From Embleya scabrispora DSM 41855 (lineage in GTDB: Bacteria > Actinomycetota > Actinomycetes > Streptomycetales > Streptomycetaceae): a stretch of DNA of 64,000 nt. How positions within the stretch are numbered: position 1 is the first letter of the stretch; each line of letters starts with the position of its first letter. The notes under the pieces were generated by a model. That model made no database searches. It saw nothing but the letters and a program-made list of their open reading frames with translations, and had not been told where the DNA came from. Shown here one piece after another: positions 13,670-44,694 of this stretch. The stretch spans positions 1 through 64,000 of the forward strand of contig NZ_KB889667.1 in the NCBI RefSeq assembly GCF_000372745.1, in the 5' to 3' direction. The translations under genes and the position numbers were made by a program.

Positions 13670-14044
13670 ATGATCGCGCGCTTGGGCACGCTCGGGCAGG
13701 AACACCCCGTCACCGGGGTGACGATCTGGCGCGGCTGTGCGGTCGTCCACCTCGCCGGCGAACTGGACCTGCACAACGCCCCGTTGCTGCATCGCACGCT
13801 GATCGAGTTGATCGACGGCGGGTGTCGCCGGGTGGTCGTGGACGCCACCGGACTGAACTTCTGCGACTCGGTCGGCCTGGGTGTGCTGATAGACGCGTTC
13901 AAGTCGATGCACGCCTTTTCCGGCGAACTGCGCCTGGCCGCACCCGATCGCAACGTCCGCGCGACGCTGCGGATGACCGGTCTGATCGACGTGCTGGGCG
14001 TGCGGGACACCCTCCAGGAAGTGCTGGACGAGTTCGCCGACTGA
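13670..14044 (+). CDS. STAS-domain anti-sigma factor antagonist
   Basis: A 124-residue single STAS domain like SpoIIAA/BldG. Such proteins bind an anti-sigma kinase and release a sigma factor when unphosphorylated. The phospho-acceptor region is NFCDSVGLGVL with S67 as the expected site. AAAGG lies about 7-12 bases before the ATG. No anti-sigma kinase is adjacent, so its partner is elsewhere. The sigma/ZAS fusion 2 kb downstream is of another type and should not be assumed to be its target. Confidence 0.9.
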   Translation: MIARLGTLGQEHPVTGVTIWRGCAVVHLAGELDLHNAPLLHRTLIELIDGGCRRVVVDATGLNFCDSVGLGVLIDAFKSMHAFSGELRLAAPDRNVRATLRMTGLIDVLGVRDTLQEVLDEFAD

Positions 14045-14097: not shown

Positions 14098-15027
14098 GTG
14101 ACTGAACGTCTGATGCTCCTCGACACCGCGTCCCTGTACTTCCGCGCCTACTTCGGCGTCCCGGAATCGGTCAAGGCTCCCGACGGCACACCGGTCAACG
14201 CGGTGCGCGGCCTGGTCGACTTCATCACGCGCCTGGTCGAGGACCGCCGGCCCACCCGACTGGTGGCGTGCATGGACGCGGACTGGCGACCGCAGTTCCG
14301 GGTCGACGCGATCCCCTCCTACAAGGCGCACCGGGTCGCCGAGGCGGCCGGTCCGGACGAGGAGGAGATCCCGGACACGCTCGCCCCGCAGGTGCCGGTG
14401 ATCGAGCAGGTGTTGGACGCGCTGGGCATCCCGCGTGTGGGCGTGCCGGGCTTCGAGGCGGACGACGTGATCGCCACGCTGGCCGAGCGGGCCGGCATCG
14501 CGGTGGACATCGTCACCGGCGACCGGGATCTGTTCCAACTCGTCGACGACGCACGCGCGATCCGGGTGCTCTACACGGTCAAGGGCGTGGCCGCGCACGA
14601 GGTGATCGACGAGGCCGCCGTGCTCGCCCGCTACGGCGTGCCCGCCCCGGCCTACGCGGACTTCGCCACGCTGCGCGGGGACACCAGCGACGGGCTGCCC
14701 GGGGTCAAGGGCATCGGGGACAAGACCGCGGCGCAGTTGATCGGCGAGTACGGCGACTTGGCGGGCGTGCGCGCGGCCGCGGCCGACCCGGCGGCCAAGC
14801 TGACCCCGGCACGGCGGGCCCGAATCCTGGAGGCGGGCGACTACCTGGACGTGGCCCCGGGCGTGGTGCGGGTGGTGCGGGAGGTGCCGCTGCCGCCGGC
14901 GGCCGAGTGGGATCGGCCGCTGCCCACCGAGCCGGCCGATCCGGTCGCCCTCGACGCGTTGCGCCGGCAGTGGGGCCTGAGCGGTCCGGTGCACCGGTTG
15001 CTCGACGTGCTCGCCCCTCGTCGGTGA
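14098..15027 (+). CDS. 5'-3' exonuclease / FEN-like nuclease
   Basis: A 309-residue stand-alone homologue of the PolI N-terminal 5' nuclease domain. Metal-binding acidic motifs are visible in LLDTASLYFRAYFG at the start, FEADDVIATLA and TGDRDLFQLVDD; a helix-hairpin-helix follows (GDTSDGLPGVKGIGDKTAAQ). Expected activity is on DNA flaps or RNA primers. I chose GTG 14098 (VTERLMLL); an ATG four codons upstream is an alternative. It begins 53 bases after the STAS gene and may be cotranscribed with it. Confidence 0.9.
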   Translation: MTERLMLLDTASLYFRAYFGVPESVKAPDGTPVNAVRGLVDFITRLVEDRRPTRLVACMDADWRPQFRVDAIPSYKAHRVAEAAGPDEEEIPDTLAPQVPVIEQVLDALGIPRVGVPGFEADDVIATLAERAGIAVDIVTGDRDLFQLVDDARAIRVLYTVKGVAAHEVIDEAAVLARYGVPAPAYADFATLRGDTSDGLPGVKGIGDKTAAQLIGEYGDLAGVRAAAADPAAKLTPARRARILEAGDYLDVAPGVVRVVREVPLPPAAEWDRPLPTEPADPVALDALRRQWGLSGPVHRLLDVLAPRR

Positions 15028-15107
15028 TGCCCCGAATCTCCGCCTGAGGCCGGCGGCCGGCCACTCGAAAGGGTCGCTCCCGAACGCGCCGGGCGCACGG
15101 CCGGTAA

Positions 15108-15123
15108 TGTGACCTGGGTCACA
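15108..15123. promoter_or_regulatory. Crp-type palindromic operator candidate
   Basis: TGTGACCTGGGTCACA is an exact TGTGA-N6-TCACA palindrome. It also fits the GTG-N6-GNCAC form reported for Streptomyces Crp. It lies 80 bases after the exonuclease stop and 56 bases before the ATG of the hypothetical gene at 15179. A regulatory role is inferred from sequence only. Confidence 0.55.
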
Positions 15124-15178
15124 CCTGAAAGTTCCGCGGAATCTGTCACGTTCGTCGTGAAGTCATGTCTCCCCAGGC

Positions 15179-15907
15179 ATGCGTACCGACTGTGACACCA
15201 CGATCACGACCCGACCCGAACGCGATCGACTCCGAGGCGAGCGGCAACGGGTGACCTCCCGAGCCGGTCGGCCGGCCCGGGTCGCCCGGCACAGTGACGC
15301 CGTCGAGCAATGCCCGGACGCCTTCGCCCGAGGCGGCCACGTGCACTCCGCGCGCCCGGCCCCGGCCCGGGACCGGGCCGCCGCCGAGATCCCGCCGGCC
15401 GTGGCGCCGGCCGCACCGGACGCGCTTTTCCTGTGCGGCCTCGCCCACAGCGCGCCCGGCCCGCTCACACAGGTCTCCCTGGGCACCCGCGCCCGGGCCA
15501 ACCCGCCGGGCGTCCTGCCGCCGTCCACCGACCCGATCGCCGAACTCCCCTCGGCCGCCCTCCTCCGGCGGCGACGTGCCCGGCGGGCCGCCGCCGATGA
15601 GCACGTGCGGCTCGTGGTGGTGCGCCCGGAGGTGCCCGAGTCGCTGCCGTGGGACGACCCGCGTCACCTGCCACCGACCGCCGGACACCTGGAACGCGCG
15701 CTCGGCGACCGGGCGCACGCGGTGCCGCCCGGCCGACTGATGGCTCCCCTCGACGGCGACGACCCCGAGTCGCCGGACCGCCTGGACCGGCTGTGCCGGG
15801 CGCCGGTGGACCCGCCGGACGGCCCCGACGGGATGCCCGGCGGCGCTCCGCGCAGCCCGCGTTCGAGCGTGCGTTTGGCCGCCGCGCCGGGCGGGACGGG
15901 TCGGTAG
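15179..15907 (+). CDS. Hypothetical protein
   Basis: A 242-codon frame with high GC at third positions. The translation is Arg/Pro-rich at the N-terminus, with a more ordered segment around residues 140-205 (EHVRLVVVRPEVPESLPWDD). No family is recognised and no membrane segment or signal peptide is visible. The opposite strand also stays open, so this is only a probable gene. It follows the Crp-type palindrome and precedes the sigma factor gene. The start could be further downstream. Confidence 0.4.
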   Translation: MRTDCDTTITTRPERDRLRGERQRVTSRAGRPARVARHSDAVEQCPDAFARGGHVHSARPAPARDRAAAEIPPAVAPAAPDALFLCGLAHSAPGPLTQVSLGTRARANPPGVLPPSTDPIAELPSAALLRRRRARRAAADEHVRLVVVRPEVPESLPWDDPRHLPPTAGHLERALGDRAHAVPPGRLMAPLDGDDPESPDRLDRLCRAPVDPPDGPDGMPGGAPRSPRSSVRLAAAPGGTGR

Positions 15908-16149
15908 CACGAGATGAACCAACTCTTCGTGCGTGCGTTCGTCACCCGAATGACGCAGCGTCACACCCGCCGCGAACCCCCGAACGACCCGGGCGCGGGC
16001 GTTCGACCCCCGCGCCCGTGCCACGCCACCAGCGCCGGAGCGCACTCCGGGTGCCTTGCCCGGCCCCACCGCTTGTGGACAGAGCGTGTCCGGATGGTCA
16101 CGATGCTGTCCGAACAATCGGCTACGGCACGGGAACAAGGGGGCAAACG

Positions 16150-17901
16150 GTGGCACGCGAGGACGACGCGGCGACCCCGGACCCCAGCGGCGACGGGAAC
16201 GGCGGCGCCGCCGAGGCGACCGGCTCCGGCGCACGTCCGCCCTTCGTCCCCGGCCAGCGCGGCGTGCATCACTCTCGGGTGTACGACGGCGACCTCCGGC
16301 CCGAGCCGGCCGCAACCCAATCGGCCCAGCCCTGGCCGGCCGACACCACAGCGCCCCACCCCTTCGCGCCCGACCCGGGCGGGTACTTCGACCCCGCACC
16401 GGACGCCGACGTCGGCCGGGCGGCCGCGTACGACGGCCCCCCGGACGGCGAACTGGCCGATGCGGTGCGCGCCGGCGACGGCGACGCCTACGGCTTGCTC
16501 TATCAGCGCCACGTCGGCTCGGTCCGCCGCTTCGCGCACACCTGCACCCGCACCCCCGAGGCCGCCGACGACCTGTGCGCCGAGGCGTTCGCCCGCACGC
16601 TGCAGGCGTTGCGCTCGGGCCAGGGGCCGACGAAGGCGTTCCGGGCCTACCTGCTCACCACCGTGCGGCACGTCGCCGGCGACTGGACCAGGAGCGATCG
16701 CCGCGAATGGCTCACCGAGGACTTCACCGTCTTCGAGTCCGCGTGGGAGAGCCAGGACCGCGTGGTGAAGGCCGACGACGCGCGGCTCGCGCTCCAGGCG
16801 TTCCAGGACCTGCCCGAGCGGTCCCGGATGGTGCTGTGGCACGTGGACATCGAGGGCGAGCAGGCCGTCCGGGTCGCCCCCCTGGTCGGCGAGAACCCGG
16901 ACAACGTGCGCAAGATCCTGGAGCGGGCCCGCCAGGAACTGCGCGACAACTACTTCGTTGCGTTCGCCACCGGCGGCGTCAAGGACGAGAACTGCAAGAA
17001 GTTCACCCGGCACTACGGCCGGCACATCCGTAACCGGATGGACTCCGAGAAGCGCCGGGAAAGCATCGACGCGCACCTGAAGAAGTGCAGCCGATGCAAC
17101 CGGACCTACGCGGAGATGGTCGACGTCCGCGACCGGTACGGGCCGATCGCGCTGGCACTGATCGGCATCACCGCGCCGATCTTCCTCAGCGGCACCGCCG
17201 CGGCCGCGGGCACCGCCGCGGCGGCCACAGCCGTGGCCGGCGGGATGGGCCTGGCCGCGGGCGCAACCGGCGCGGGCGGCGTCGCCAGCGGCGTGGCCGC
17301 GGGCGCCGCGGCGGCCGGGAGCGCCGCGGCCGGCGCGGGCGTGGGCGCGGCCAAGGGCGCGAGCCGGGCCGGCCAGACCGCAGGCCGCTCGTCGCTGATC
17401 GCGGGCGGCGTGGTGGTGGCCGTGGCGGTGGCCGCGTTCGCCATCGTGGACACCGACGAACCCAAGCCGAGGCGCCCGGCCCCACCGGTGGCCGCCTCGG
17501 CGCCCGCCCGCCCGCCGACGCCGCCCACCGCCGAGACCCGCCCCCCGCAGCCCTCGTCGCCCGAGCCGGAGGTCGAGCCGCCCGCCAAGCCCCCCGCCGA
17601 GCCGGCCGCGACCTCGCCGCCGCGCCCGACGCCCACGAAGTACCCGCCGGCCAGGCCCACTCCGACCAGGCACAAGTCGCCCCGGTCCGGTCCGACCCTG
17701 GTGGCCGACAACAAGGAGTTCCGCGCCGACGACAACAAGGTCGGCTTCAAGTGCGACAACGGCGCCGGCAAGTGGTGCGTAAACCCGACCATCACGGTGC
17801 CCAGCGCGCTTGCCGCACCGCTGATGCCGCCCGGCTCCACCGCCCGGTGCACCGAGGTCAAAGGCAAGAACGGCTCGCACTACACGCTGTGCCGGCGCTG
17901 A
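16150..17901 (+). CDS. Sigma-70 family (ECF-like) factor fused to a ZAS-like domain and membrane segments
   Basis: A 583-residue protein from GTG 16150 (AAGGGGG upstream). After a disordered N-terminus (1-95) come sigma region 2 (about 100-185, LADAVRAGDGDAYGLLYQRH) and region 4 (about 205-270). A zinc anti-sigma-like signature follows: C282, then H309-x3-C313-x2-C316. Hydrophobic segments lie at about 331-348 and 415-433, separated by an Ala/Gly-rich stretch. Then a proline-rich spacer (435-515) and a C-terminal domain with four cysteines (535, 543, 567, 581), probably extracytoplasmic. This predicts a membrane-tethered sigma factor carrying its own regulator. The exact ECF group is not assigned. 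Confidence 0.85.
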   Translation: MAREDDAATPDPSGDGNGGAAEATGSGARPPFVPGQRGVHHSRVYDGDLRPEPAATQSAQPWPADTTAPHPFAPDPGGYFDPAPDADVGRAAAYDGPPDGELADAVRAGDGDAYGLLYQRHVGSVRRFAHTCTRTPEAADDLCAEAFARTLQALRSGQGPTKAFRAYLLTTVRHVAGDWTRSDRREWLTEDFTVFESAWESQDRVVKADDARLALQAFQDLPERSRMVLWHVDIEGEQAVRVAPLVGENPDNVRKILERARQELRDNYFVAFATGGVKDENCKKFTRHYGRHIRNRMDSEKRRESIDAHLKKCSRCNRTYAEMVDVRDRYGPIALALIGITAPIFLSGTAAAAGTAAAATAVAGGMGLAAGATGAGGVASGVAAGAAAAGSAAAGAGVGAAKGASRAGQTAGRSSLIAGGVVVAVAVAAFAIVDTDEPKPRRPAPPVAASAPARPPTPPTAETRPPQPSSPEPEVEPPAKPPAEPAATSPPRPTPTKYPPARPTPTRHKSPRSGPTLVADNKEFRADDNKVGFKCDNGAGKWCVNPTITVPSALAAPLMPPGSTARCTEVKGKNGSHYTLCRR

Positions 17902-17906
17902 CCCTA

Positions 17907-17934
17907 CCGGGCGTCCGGTCCGGTCCCCGCCCGG
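17907..17934. terminator. Bidirectional terminator candidate
   Basis: 7-bp inverted repeat CCGGGCG/CGCCCGG with a 14-base loop in the gap between the converging sigma factor and amidase genes. No T-tract. Confidence 0.4.
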
Positions 17935-17992
17935 CGCACGATGAATCGGCCGCGTCCCGCAGTGCCGTCCCCGGCGTCCCTCGACGGCCCGC

Positions 17993-19417
17993 CTAGCCCA
18001 CCGCGCCCGCGGTGCCCGCCCACGGGGCCGCCGCCTCCAATTGGCCCGCGAGCCGGAACAGGGTGGTCTCGTCGCCGTAGCGGCCGGCGAACTGCACCCC
18101 CAGCGGCAGCCCGTCCGAGGTGTGCCCCAACGGCACCGACATGGCCGGCTGCCCGGTCACGTTGAACAGGCTGGTGAACGCGGCCATCCCGCGCATCCCG
18201 CGCAGCGCGGCCAGCGGATCGCGGTTGGGGTCCAACTCGCCCAGCAGCGGCGGCACCACCGCCATCGTCGGGGTCAGCAGCACGTCGAAGCGCCCGGTCA
18301 GCCGGGTCACCGCCCGCCCGATCGCGTGCATCTTGTCGATCGCGGCCAGGTAGCGCGCCAGCGACAACCCGCGGCCCTTGTCCACGATCAGCCGGGTGGC
18401 CCCGTCCAGATCGTCCGCCTGGAGCTCGCGCCCCAACTCGGCCAGGCGCAGATCCACCATCCGCGCCATGTGCGCCGCGCTGATCGGCGCGATCACCTCG
18501 CCCGGCCGGGTCAGCGTGTCCGGCCAGGTCACCGGCTCCACGTCGTGCCCCAGCGCGACACACAGCGCGGCGGCCTCCTCGGCGACCCGTACACACTCGG
18601 GGTCCACCGCCACGTCCGCGTCCACCGGCGCCAGGATCAGCCCGATCCGCAGCCGCCCGGGATCCGCGCCCACCTCGGCGGCGTACGGGCCCACCGGTGG
18701 CGGCGCGTGATACGGATCGCCCGGCTCGGGGGTGCCGGTGACGTCGAGCAGCGTCGCGCTGTCGCGCACCGTGCGGGTGACCGCGTGCGCGACCGCGAGG
18801 CCGGCCCACGACTCGCCGTGCTCGGGCCCCGGAGTGACCCGGCCGCGGCTCGGCTTGAGCCCGAACACCCCGCAGCACGCGGCCGGGATCCGAATCGAGC
18901 CGCCGCCGTCGGTGGCGTGCGCGACCGGCACCATGCCCGCCGCGACCGCCGCCGCCGACCCGCCGCTGGAGCCGCCCGTGCTGCGGTCGCGATGCCAGGG
19001 GTTGTGCGCGGGGCCGAACAGGCCGGACTCGGTGCTCGTACCGAGCCCGAACTCGGGGGTGTTGGTCTTGCCCACGATCAGCACACCGGCCGCCCGCAAC
19101 CGGGTCACCAGCGTGCTGTCGCGCGCCGCGACCGCACCGGCGAACAACCGTGACCCGTTGCTCGTGACCATCCCGGCCACGTCGCACTCCAGGTCCTTGA
19201 TCAGATACGGCACGCCCGCGAGCACTCCGGGCAACAATCCGGCGACCGCGGCCCGGGCCTGCTCCTCGCACAACGCAACCACCGCGCCCAGGGCCGGCTC
19301 GCGCTCCTTGATCGCCTCGAAGGTGACGTCGAGCACCTGGTCCGCGCTCACCTCGCCACGGGCGATCAGGCCCGCGAGCCCGGTGGCGTCATAGGACTGA
19401 TACTCGTCGATCCGCAC
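17993..19417 (-). CDS. Amidase (amidase signature family)
   Basis: A 474-residue amidase-signature hydrolase using the Ser-cisSer-Lys triad: K74 in YLIKDLEC, cis-Ser S150 in TGGSSGGS, nucleophile S174 in [11 protein letters not shown]. It would hydrolyse a carboxamide; the natural substrate cannot be told. No GatB or GatC neighbour is present, so it is not annotated as GatA. I chose GTG 19417 because GGAGG lies 7 bases upstream; the frame extends 43 codons further upstream without family support. It follows helY on the same strand after 153 bases. Confidence 0.9.
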
Positions 19418-43423: not shown

Positions 43424-43518
43424 GGGGGTCAGCCTAGTCGGTCGTGGGCGACGCTCCGACGCGTGGGTACGGGCCCCGTGGGGGTCAAACCCGGACTCGG
43501 TTGCATAGCATCTTGGAC

Positions 43519-44694
43519 GTGACTGATTCGAGCAGGCCGCAGGGACGCAGGATGCGGCAGGACGAGGCCCCGCGCCGGGAACCCAGGCGTGGCCTGCTCA
43601 TGGGGCGCCCCTTCGGGGTGCCGGTCTACGTCGCGCCGACCTGGTTCGTGATCGCCGCGGTGATCACGGTGTTGTTCGCGCCGACCTTCGAGAGCCTGTT
43701 CCCAAATCTGGGTCCGTGGCGGTTCGTGTTGTCGTTCGGCTTCGCGGTGCTGTTGTACGTGTCGGTCCTGGTGCACGAGTTGGCGCACGCGGTGACGGCG
43801 CTGCGGCTGGGCCTGCCGGTGCGGCGGATCACCATCCAGTTCCTGGGCGGGGTGTCCGAGATCGACAAGCCGGAGACGGCCCGGCACGAGTTCCTGGTGT
43901 CGGCGGCGGGTCCGGCGTTGTCGCTCGGGCTCGGTGGTGGGTTCTGGGTGATCGGCCTGGCCTTGGACGTGGACACGTTGGCGGGGCGGATGGTCGCGTT
44001 GCTGGCGGTGTCCAACCTGCTGGTGGCGGCGTTCAATCTGCTGCCGGGGCTGCCGTTGGACGGTGGCCGGATGTTGCGGGCGGTGGTGTGGCGGGTCAGC
44101 GGGCGGCCGTTGACCGGCACGATCGCCGCGTCCTGGGCCGGGCGGGTGCTCGCCGTGGTGGTGCTGGTCGCGGCGGCGGTGTGGTCGCTGGGGGCGGACG
44201 CGGGGGCGCGGACGTACACGCTGATCTTCGGTGCCCTGGTGGCCGGATTCATGTGGGCGGGCGCGGTGCAGTCGCTGCGCGCGGAGCGGCTTCGGGAGCG
44301 GTTGCCGGAGTTGCGGGTGCGGTTGTTGACCCGGCGGGCGATTCCGGTGGCGGCGGATGTGCCGTTGTCCGAGGCGCTGCGGCAGGCGCACGAGGAGGGC
44401 GCTCGGGGGTTGGTGGTGGTGGACCGGGGTGGCGAACCGGTGGGGCTGGTGCGCGAGGCCGCGGTGTTGGCCACGCCGGAGCATCGCCGGCCGTGGGTGG
44501 CGGTGGGGCCGTTGGCGCGGGATCTGGTGCCGGGGATGAGGGTCGGCGCGGATTTGGCCGGGGAGGACTTGTTGGTGGCGATGCGGGCGGTGCCGGCGAG
44601 TGAGTACCTGGTGGTGGAGCGGGACGGCGGGGTGTACGGGGTGCTTTCTCGGTTGGATGTCGAGCATGCGTTTTTGGCCATGATGCGGGGTTGA
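43519..44694 (+). CDS. Site-2 protease family zinc metalloprotease with CBS domains
   Basis: A 391-residue intramembrane protease of the S2P/SpoIVFB group. The zinc motif HELAH is at 86-90 inside a membrane segment, and the third ligand D181 lies in NLLPGLPLDGGR. Five to six hydrophobic spans reach about residue 255, then a CBS pair (about 285-388) that may sense an adenine nucleotide. It would cut a membrane-bound regulator such as an anti-sigma factor; no direct neighbour is an obvious substrate. The GTG start at 43519 has only a weak ribosome site. Confidence 0.92.
   Translation: MTDSSRPQGRRMRQDEAPRREPRRGLLMGRPFGVPVYVAPTWFVIAAVITVLFAPTFESLFPNLGPWRFVLSFGFAVLLYVSVLVHELAHAVTALRLGLPVRRITIQFLGGVSEIDKPETARHEFLVSAAGPALSLGLGGGFWVIGLALDVDTLAGRMVALLAVSNLLVAAFNLLPGLPLDGGRMLRAVVWRVSGRPLTGTIAASWAGRVLAVVVLVAAAVWSLGADAGARTYTLIFGALVAGFMWAGAVQSLRAERLRERLPELRVRLLTRRAIPVAADVPLSEALRQAHEEGARGLVVVDRGGEPVGLVREAAVLATPEHRRPWVAVGPLARDLVPGMRVGADLAGEDLLVAMRAVPASEYLVVERDGGVYGVLSRLDVEHAFLAMMRG

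Follow-up and report, generated by a model that had tools for sequence, protein, structure and literature searches.

Extracytoplasmic function (ECF) sigma factors of the groups ECF48, ECF52 and ECF53 are described as being fused at the C-terminus to a zinc-finger anti-sigma domain with one to two membrane helices, and their release by proteolysis has already been predicted (PMC8999054, PMC5826349). For such fused sigma factors, domains predicted to bind carbohydrate or to be glycosyl hydrolases have been noted (PMC10766802). SCO4117 of Streptomyces coelicolor activates development, and without its zinc finger, membrane part and carbohydrate-binding module it activates its own gene, its authors concluding that the sigma part can modulate development by itself (PMC5826349). 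IutY, a fused ECF factor, is processed by Prc and RseP (PMC8999054). Here we describe a gene of this general design at positions 16150–17901, forward strand, of a 64,000-nucleotide stretch of Embleya scabrispora DSM 41855 contig NZ_KB889667.1 (the window). Its product carries an ECF sigma factor, a putative zinc-associated anti-sigma (ZAS) domain, a predicted membrane anchor, a proline-rich spacer and a four-cysteine end domain in one chain, laid out as follows.

16150..17901, + strand: whole gene, 583 aa, GTG start (open frame, GC at codon position 3, conserved start region)
16150..16434, + strand: N-terminal extension, aa 1–95, low complexity, Ala/Pro/Asp/Gly-rich (composition)
16498..16704, + strand: sigma-70 region 2, aa 117–185 (Pfam Sigma70_r2)
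16789..16941, + strand: sigma-70 region 4, aa 214–264, weak Pfam match (Sigma70_r4_2; TIGR02937 covers both regions)
16993..17097, + strand: Cys-His-Cys-Cys (CHCC)-type ZAS motif, aa 282–316 (C282, H309, C313, C316), fused anti-sigma domain (zf-HC2, motif, alignment, PDB profile)
17143..17199, + strand: first hydrophobic stretch, aa 332–350, most likely anti-sigma helix 4 and not a membrane span (hydropathy)
17203..17349, + strand: Ala/Gly-rich linker, aa 352–400, no charged residue (composition)
17392..17448, + strand: membrane anchor, aa 415–433, net charge +3 ahead of it (hydropathy)
17458..17685, + strand: Pro-rich spacer, aa 437–512, 38% Pro, probably wall-crossing (composition)
17686..17898, + strand: four-Cys C-terminal domain, aa 513–583, presumed outside and presumed disulfide-bonded (profile, shuffles)

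By analogy with SCO4117 and IutY, we think it probable that this protein belongs to the fused ECF48/52/53 sort: a membrane sigma factor that inhibits itself until a surface signal triggers its proteolytic release. In this model the intramolecular ZAS domain would hold the N-terminal ECF sigma factor inactive on the cytoplasmic face of the membrane, and the small, disulfide-bonded end domain would be carried into the wall by a single membrane segment and a stiff Pro-rich spacer. On sensing a surface signal, the end domain would set off cleavage outside; a site-2 protease would then cut within the membrane and what is left of the ZAS domain would be cleared, which would free the sigma factor.

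The sigma part was recognized by Sigma70_r2 at aa 117–185 (E 4e-12) and by TIGR02937 (sigma70-ECF), which scored 64 bits over aa 115–266 against a cut-off of 42.9, so that regions 2 and 4, and these two only, are present in the chain, as the first-pass annotation had read it. The ZAS-like domain fused in the same chain was examined in an alignment of fused sequences. This alignment comprises 30 chromosomal loci, window included, and 8 plasmid proteins (26 plasmid records matched and 10 were taken, of which L009 and L011 were read and left out of the tree and of the count). C282, R294, H309, C313 and C316 are invariant in all 38 sequences; because the rows were cut at a match to [HR]xxxCxxC, the invariance of H309, C313 and C316 is partly selected, and C282 and R294 lie outside that selection. 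HxxxCxxC arose in 0.18% of 20,000 shuffled versions of the protein sequence; we regard the conservation as stronger evidence for a zinc motif than this statistic, and it would be doubtful to call the window motif, taken alone, a real one. The published ZAS rule places a Cys or His 23–26 residues ahead of HxxxCxxC, and the ligands of RsrA are Cys11, His37, Cys41 and Cys44 (PMC4960319). C282, H309, C313 and C316 show the same CHCC pattern and conform to that rule, with a number difference of 27 between C282 and H309 (26 residues between); counted with the nearest Cys, this difference is 26 in 30 rows, 27 in four, 25 in three and 22 in one.

A profile of the ZAS region built from 19 rows was related by sequence to known ZAS proteins in the PDB, most strongly to 3hug_B (E 8e-5), which we take to be RslA (the entry itself is titled conserved membrane protein), and to RsiW (0.004), followed by DdvA (0.04) and ChrR (0.047). 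RsrA appeared at E 1.8, beneath four unrelated entries at 0.46–0.77. Seventeen of the 19 profile members matched zf-HC2 at E ≤0.1, and among 13 full relatives scanned six scored over the zf-HC2 cut-off, two scored under it and five had no listing. RsrA, ChrR, RsiW and RslA are separate proteins, whereas the window ZAS domain lies in the sigma factor's own chain. From these comparisons, a sigma factor fused with its own ZAS domain in one chain is well supported.

The first-pass annotation had proposed a one-protein signalling device. Sigma factor, ZAS domain and anchor do lie in one chain, with the ligands kept throughout the alignment and the PDB profile matches agreeing; the design itself is not new, being already in print for ECF48, ECF52 and ECF53 (PMC8999054, PMC5826349). 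By description, the protein shares with ECF52 and SCO4117 an ECF sigma factor, zinc finger, membrane part and Pro-rich stretch in the same order, but SCO4117 ends in a carbohydrate-binding domain of the NPCBM kind (PMC5826349), and the window protein ends in the four-Cys domain; Pfam detected no carbohydrate-binding domain, the ECF52 feature, in its end. With ECF48 and ECF53 it shares, by description and not by sequence or group model, the zinc-finger anti-sigma fusion with a membrane helix, and with IutY (ECF243, Pseudomonas putida), again by description, a sigma factor and membrane anti-sigma factor in one chain under stepwise proteolysis, although IutY belongs to a cell-surface signalling system for an iron carrier (PMC8999054). 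Since it lacks a carbohydrate-binding domain and lies at another locus, we class the window protein as an ECF48/52/53-type variant rather than as ECF52.

The conserved ligands also admit a different account, in which the ZAS domain is a cytoplasmic redox switch: disulfide stress would expel zinc and free the sigma factor without cleavage, and the end domain would tune or localize the protein. All four CHCC positions are kept in all 38 sequences, the fourth ligand is a Cys as in RsrA, and the N-terminal Cys of RsrA is required for oxidative release (PMC4960319), which is why redox input is the rival that we take most seriously. A membrane-tethered sigma factor, however, would still have to reach promoters; zinc in membrane-bound anti-sigma factors may be structural only (PMC7406223); and the SCO4117 results suggest removal of the C-terminal part (PMC5826349). 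As a full replacement for release by proteolysis we judge the switch unlikely, and redox input and proteolytic release could both be true.

Topology presents the second choice. The strongest hydrophobic segment is aa 415–433, with a net charge of +3 before it and 0 after it; its scale sum is -1.0 versus a weak 1.8 for aa 332–350 (the sums use a biological hydrophobicity scale, and the threshold used below is a simple 19-residue hydropathy). The first-pass annotation had combined two hydrophobic segments with an end domain outside the membrane. Both stretches are there, but two full spans from a cytoplasmic start would place the four-Cys domain inside, and so the two parts of that proposal are inconsistent; one membrane span probably fits better. 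If both stretches did span the membrane, the Pro-rich and four-Cys parts would be cytoplasmic and the protein would have no outside sensor. We consider this improbable, since the first stretch is weak, falls under the threshold in 27 of the 38 sequences (over it in 11), six of these 27 having no segment over it at all, and begins 16 and ends 34 residues past C316. In RsrA, Val75 and Leu79 of helix IV, at +31 and +35 from Cys44, contact the sigma factor (PMC4960319), and because the weak stretch lies where these residues would lie, aa 332–350 most likely form helix 4 of the anti-sigma domain and do not cross the membrane. The relatives, moreover, have domains of lectin or wall type in the position of the four-Cys domain: NPCBM, ricin-B lectin, laminin-G-like (on plasmids), CAP (in a paralog of the same genome) and a weak bacterial Ig match. 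These exchanged ends lend the proposed outside location indirect support, and we presume that the end domain lies outside the cell.

Release by cleavage is plausible by analogy with the described systems. The remaining alternative, that signal binding changes only the conformation and the anchored sigma factor works without cleavage, is highly improbable given that ECF48/52/53 and IutY are placed under proteolysis (PMC8999054). As for the protease, the first-pass annotation had pointed to a site-2 protease gene 26 kb away. The gene is real (43444–44691, Peptidase_M50 with a CBS domain, starting beside a TrmI-like gene and near a frame read as Arc-like), but three M50 genes occur in the genome, the top score (149 bits) belonging to one on a different contig, so that proximity is no evidence and position alone does not make the nearby gene a partner. 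The 149-bit score does not itself make that other M50 gene the partner.

Several observations weigh against a membrane-anchored, self-inhibited sigma factor released by proteolysis. Two of the Pfam matches are below their cut-offs, Sigma70_r4_2 at aa 214–264 (17 bits versus 25.7) and zf-HC2 at aa 282–316 of the window protein (14.9 bits versus 22.2). Single-sequence structure models were poor, with a mean predicted local distance difference test (pLDDT) score of 46.9 for aa 96–330 and 40.3 for aa 513–583; the former has three helices across 280–330, with a block pLDDT of 52–71. Foldseek with the aa 96–330 model gave no fold match at E ≤0.001, the best row being a SigW chain at E 0.85. Five of its top six rows are SigW, sigmaE and CnrH chains, but at E 0.85–2, and therefore nothing is drawn from them; VIA-align with the same model gave nothing usable. 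The proposed comparison of the ZAS region with RsrA and ChrR is thus answered at the level of sequence and not of fold. In the clade of the window protein, each of the six members has the first hydrophobic stretch over the threshold, and both stretches are over it as far as the sequence reaches (L051 is cut before the second), which favors two spans. In 11 other same-family relatives with an anchor, the side before the anchor is more positive in two, equal in one and less positive in eight; because the charge bias is reversed in these 8 of 11, the outside location rests mainly on the relatives' end domains. Finally, no protease gene was recognized directly beside the sigma gene among the neighboring frames read.

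The Pro-rich spacer and four-cysteine domain were present as first described, and Cys 535, 543, 567 and 581 are the sole cysteines past the ZAS domain. The domain is homologous in the window's genus and its sister genus, with z-scores of 5.2 to 9.6 in four comparisons and none of 2000 shuffles reaching any of the scores. A five-row profile matched 6 of 121 sampled genomes of the family at E <1e-28, all from these two genera; G046, which is among the six and outside the profile, also carries a sigma–ZAS fusion with four Cys, and G003 of the window's genus lacks a match because its contig ends ahead of the domain. At E ≤0.05, matches occurred in 20 genomes of the family, 14 of them with weak matches only (best 8e-5), and because the initial pass scored 47 out of as many as ~230 candidates per genome, weaker relatives could be missed. 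Four loci with weak matches were examined by reading frames by eye, and none looked like a sigma fusion: the frames resemble transposases in L103 and L104, and one appears IstB-like in L102 and one ABC-transporter-like in L105. Pfam gave nothing for the domain up to E 5 except DUF7330 at 0.083, and the PDB held no relative, the best rows (LIR receptors, E 0.07) being taken as chance. The domain thus appears to be undescribed, being absent from Pfam and the PDB and not clearly present in the other genera sampled; as it is nameless, no name-based literature search was made.

Some sigma match was found in 41 of 41 genomes, the window's own included. Orthologs number three in the genus (82–91% identical, one truncated at a contig end) and two in the sister genus (50%); in other genera of the family the best sigma–ZAS matches are mostly 39–45% identical, and these proteins end in NPCBM in all five tested. 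In the tree, which is midpoint-rooted and has long plasmid branches, the window and the sister genus form a clade of their own (support 100/98), and a 97/92 split separates this clade from the rows of the family's other genera. Across the phylum, a profile of the sigma–ZAS junction matched 54 of 198 genomes at E ≤1e-6, with at most 26 candidates scored per genome. Among the matches listed, 29 of the 34 rows reaching from column 10 or earlier to column 80 or later belong to the window's family (8 genomes), and each of seven genomes of genus g9 has 1 to 6 junction matches. Most of the other junction matches cover the ZAS half only, as separate anti-sigma factors would. One distant Myxococcota locus from a contig scan was not used.

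These relationships leave room for a bolder proposal, which we find doubtful: a two-input sigma factor that would join, in one chain, an inner CHCC zinc switch that could respond to disulfide stress in the manner of RsrA to an exchangeable outer domain for a wall or redox signal, the four-Cys module having arisen in one branch of the family and the outer domain having been swapped between lineages on a constant sigma–ZAS core.

The window gene is a single open frame of 583 codons from the GTG at 16150 to the stop at 17901. GC content at codon position 3 is 0.91–0.97 in six pieces across the gene versus 0.60–0.64 in two pieces directly upstream, which marks the coding start near 16150; AAGGGGG directly upstream of the GTG, and the GTG itself, are identical in the window and both aligned congeners. 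A consensus scan of 15000–18200 returned no promoters and no terminators. Neighbors in the window include an amidase, a DSHCT/DEAD helicase and a STAS protein. All four flanks examined in the genus and sister genus have HelY, TatC, TatA, a WYL gene and STAS close to the sigma gene, and two of the four have the amidase; the names HelY-like helicase, amidase and STAS are Pfam-backed and the other neighbor names come from frame reading. Two congeneric genomes carry the STAS-domain protein (13670–14044, Pfam-backed) with 100% identity across 124 aa. The frame upstream of the sigma gene (15179–15907) has a GC content of 0.877 at codon position 3, is largely conserved as DNA in two congeners and has no Pfam match.

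None of the window's neighbor genes was found in five of five other 20-kb flanks, nor in the 20 kb around three of three NPCBM-type loci; the gene lies at a different locus from those relatives. At the NPCBM-type locus L094, a TetR-family gene lies just before the sigma gene, and atrA is of the TetR family. The gene order of SCO4117 next to atrA, kept in most but not all Streptomyces (PMC5826349), is absent around the window gene.

Within the window's own genome, 38 of 73 other region-2 matches were read, long frames being chosen, and two more proteins with HxxxCxxC and a membrane segment were found. L017 (contig C58, 2687–4414, - strand) is a fused sigma factor with a membrane segment and then a CAP (cysteine-rich secretory) end domain. 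L015 (contig C2, 3674–6316) is a fused anchored sigma factor with the motif HAKTCANC and a long end part, for which Pfam gave no match at E ≤0.05.

Other fused sigma genes differ in their ends and surroundings. On Paenarthrobacter and Arthrobacter plasmids (L007 and L010), they adjoin SpaA-type pilin genes, with a class C sortase also close by in L010; pilus or surface genes may be the targets of these two fused sigma factors. On a plasmid of Streptomyces sp. NBC_00334 (L002, 5935–9013), a ricin-B-ending fused sigma gene is followed by a gene for an LAETG-anchored surface protein. The NPCBM-ending protein of L095:8127–10877 (- strand; the L066 gene) has a very long collagen-like repeat between the ZAS domain and the anchor (Pfam Collagen, E 1.4e-26). 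In another family of the order (L070, L073, L075 and L077, with a variant in L078), a short two-Cys end of the kind EPTICELA...WDPFC replaces NPCBM.

Membrane sigma factors that inhibit themselves are a known class that has received little study, and the window protein extends it with an apparently undescribed end domain. Across this class a similar core bears varying end domains (NPCBM, ricin-B, laminin-G-like, CAP and four-Cys), much as receptors may have exchangeable heads, and the invariant CHCC ligands pose the question of whether the built-in ZAS domain is a redox sensor or a clamp only.
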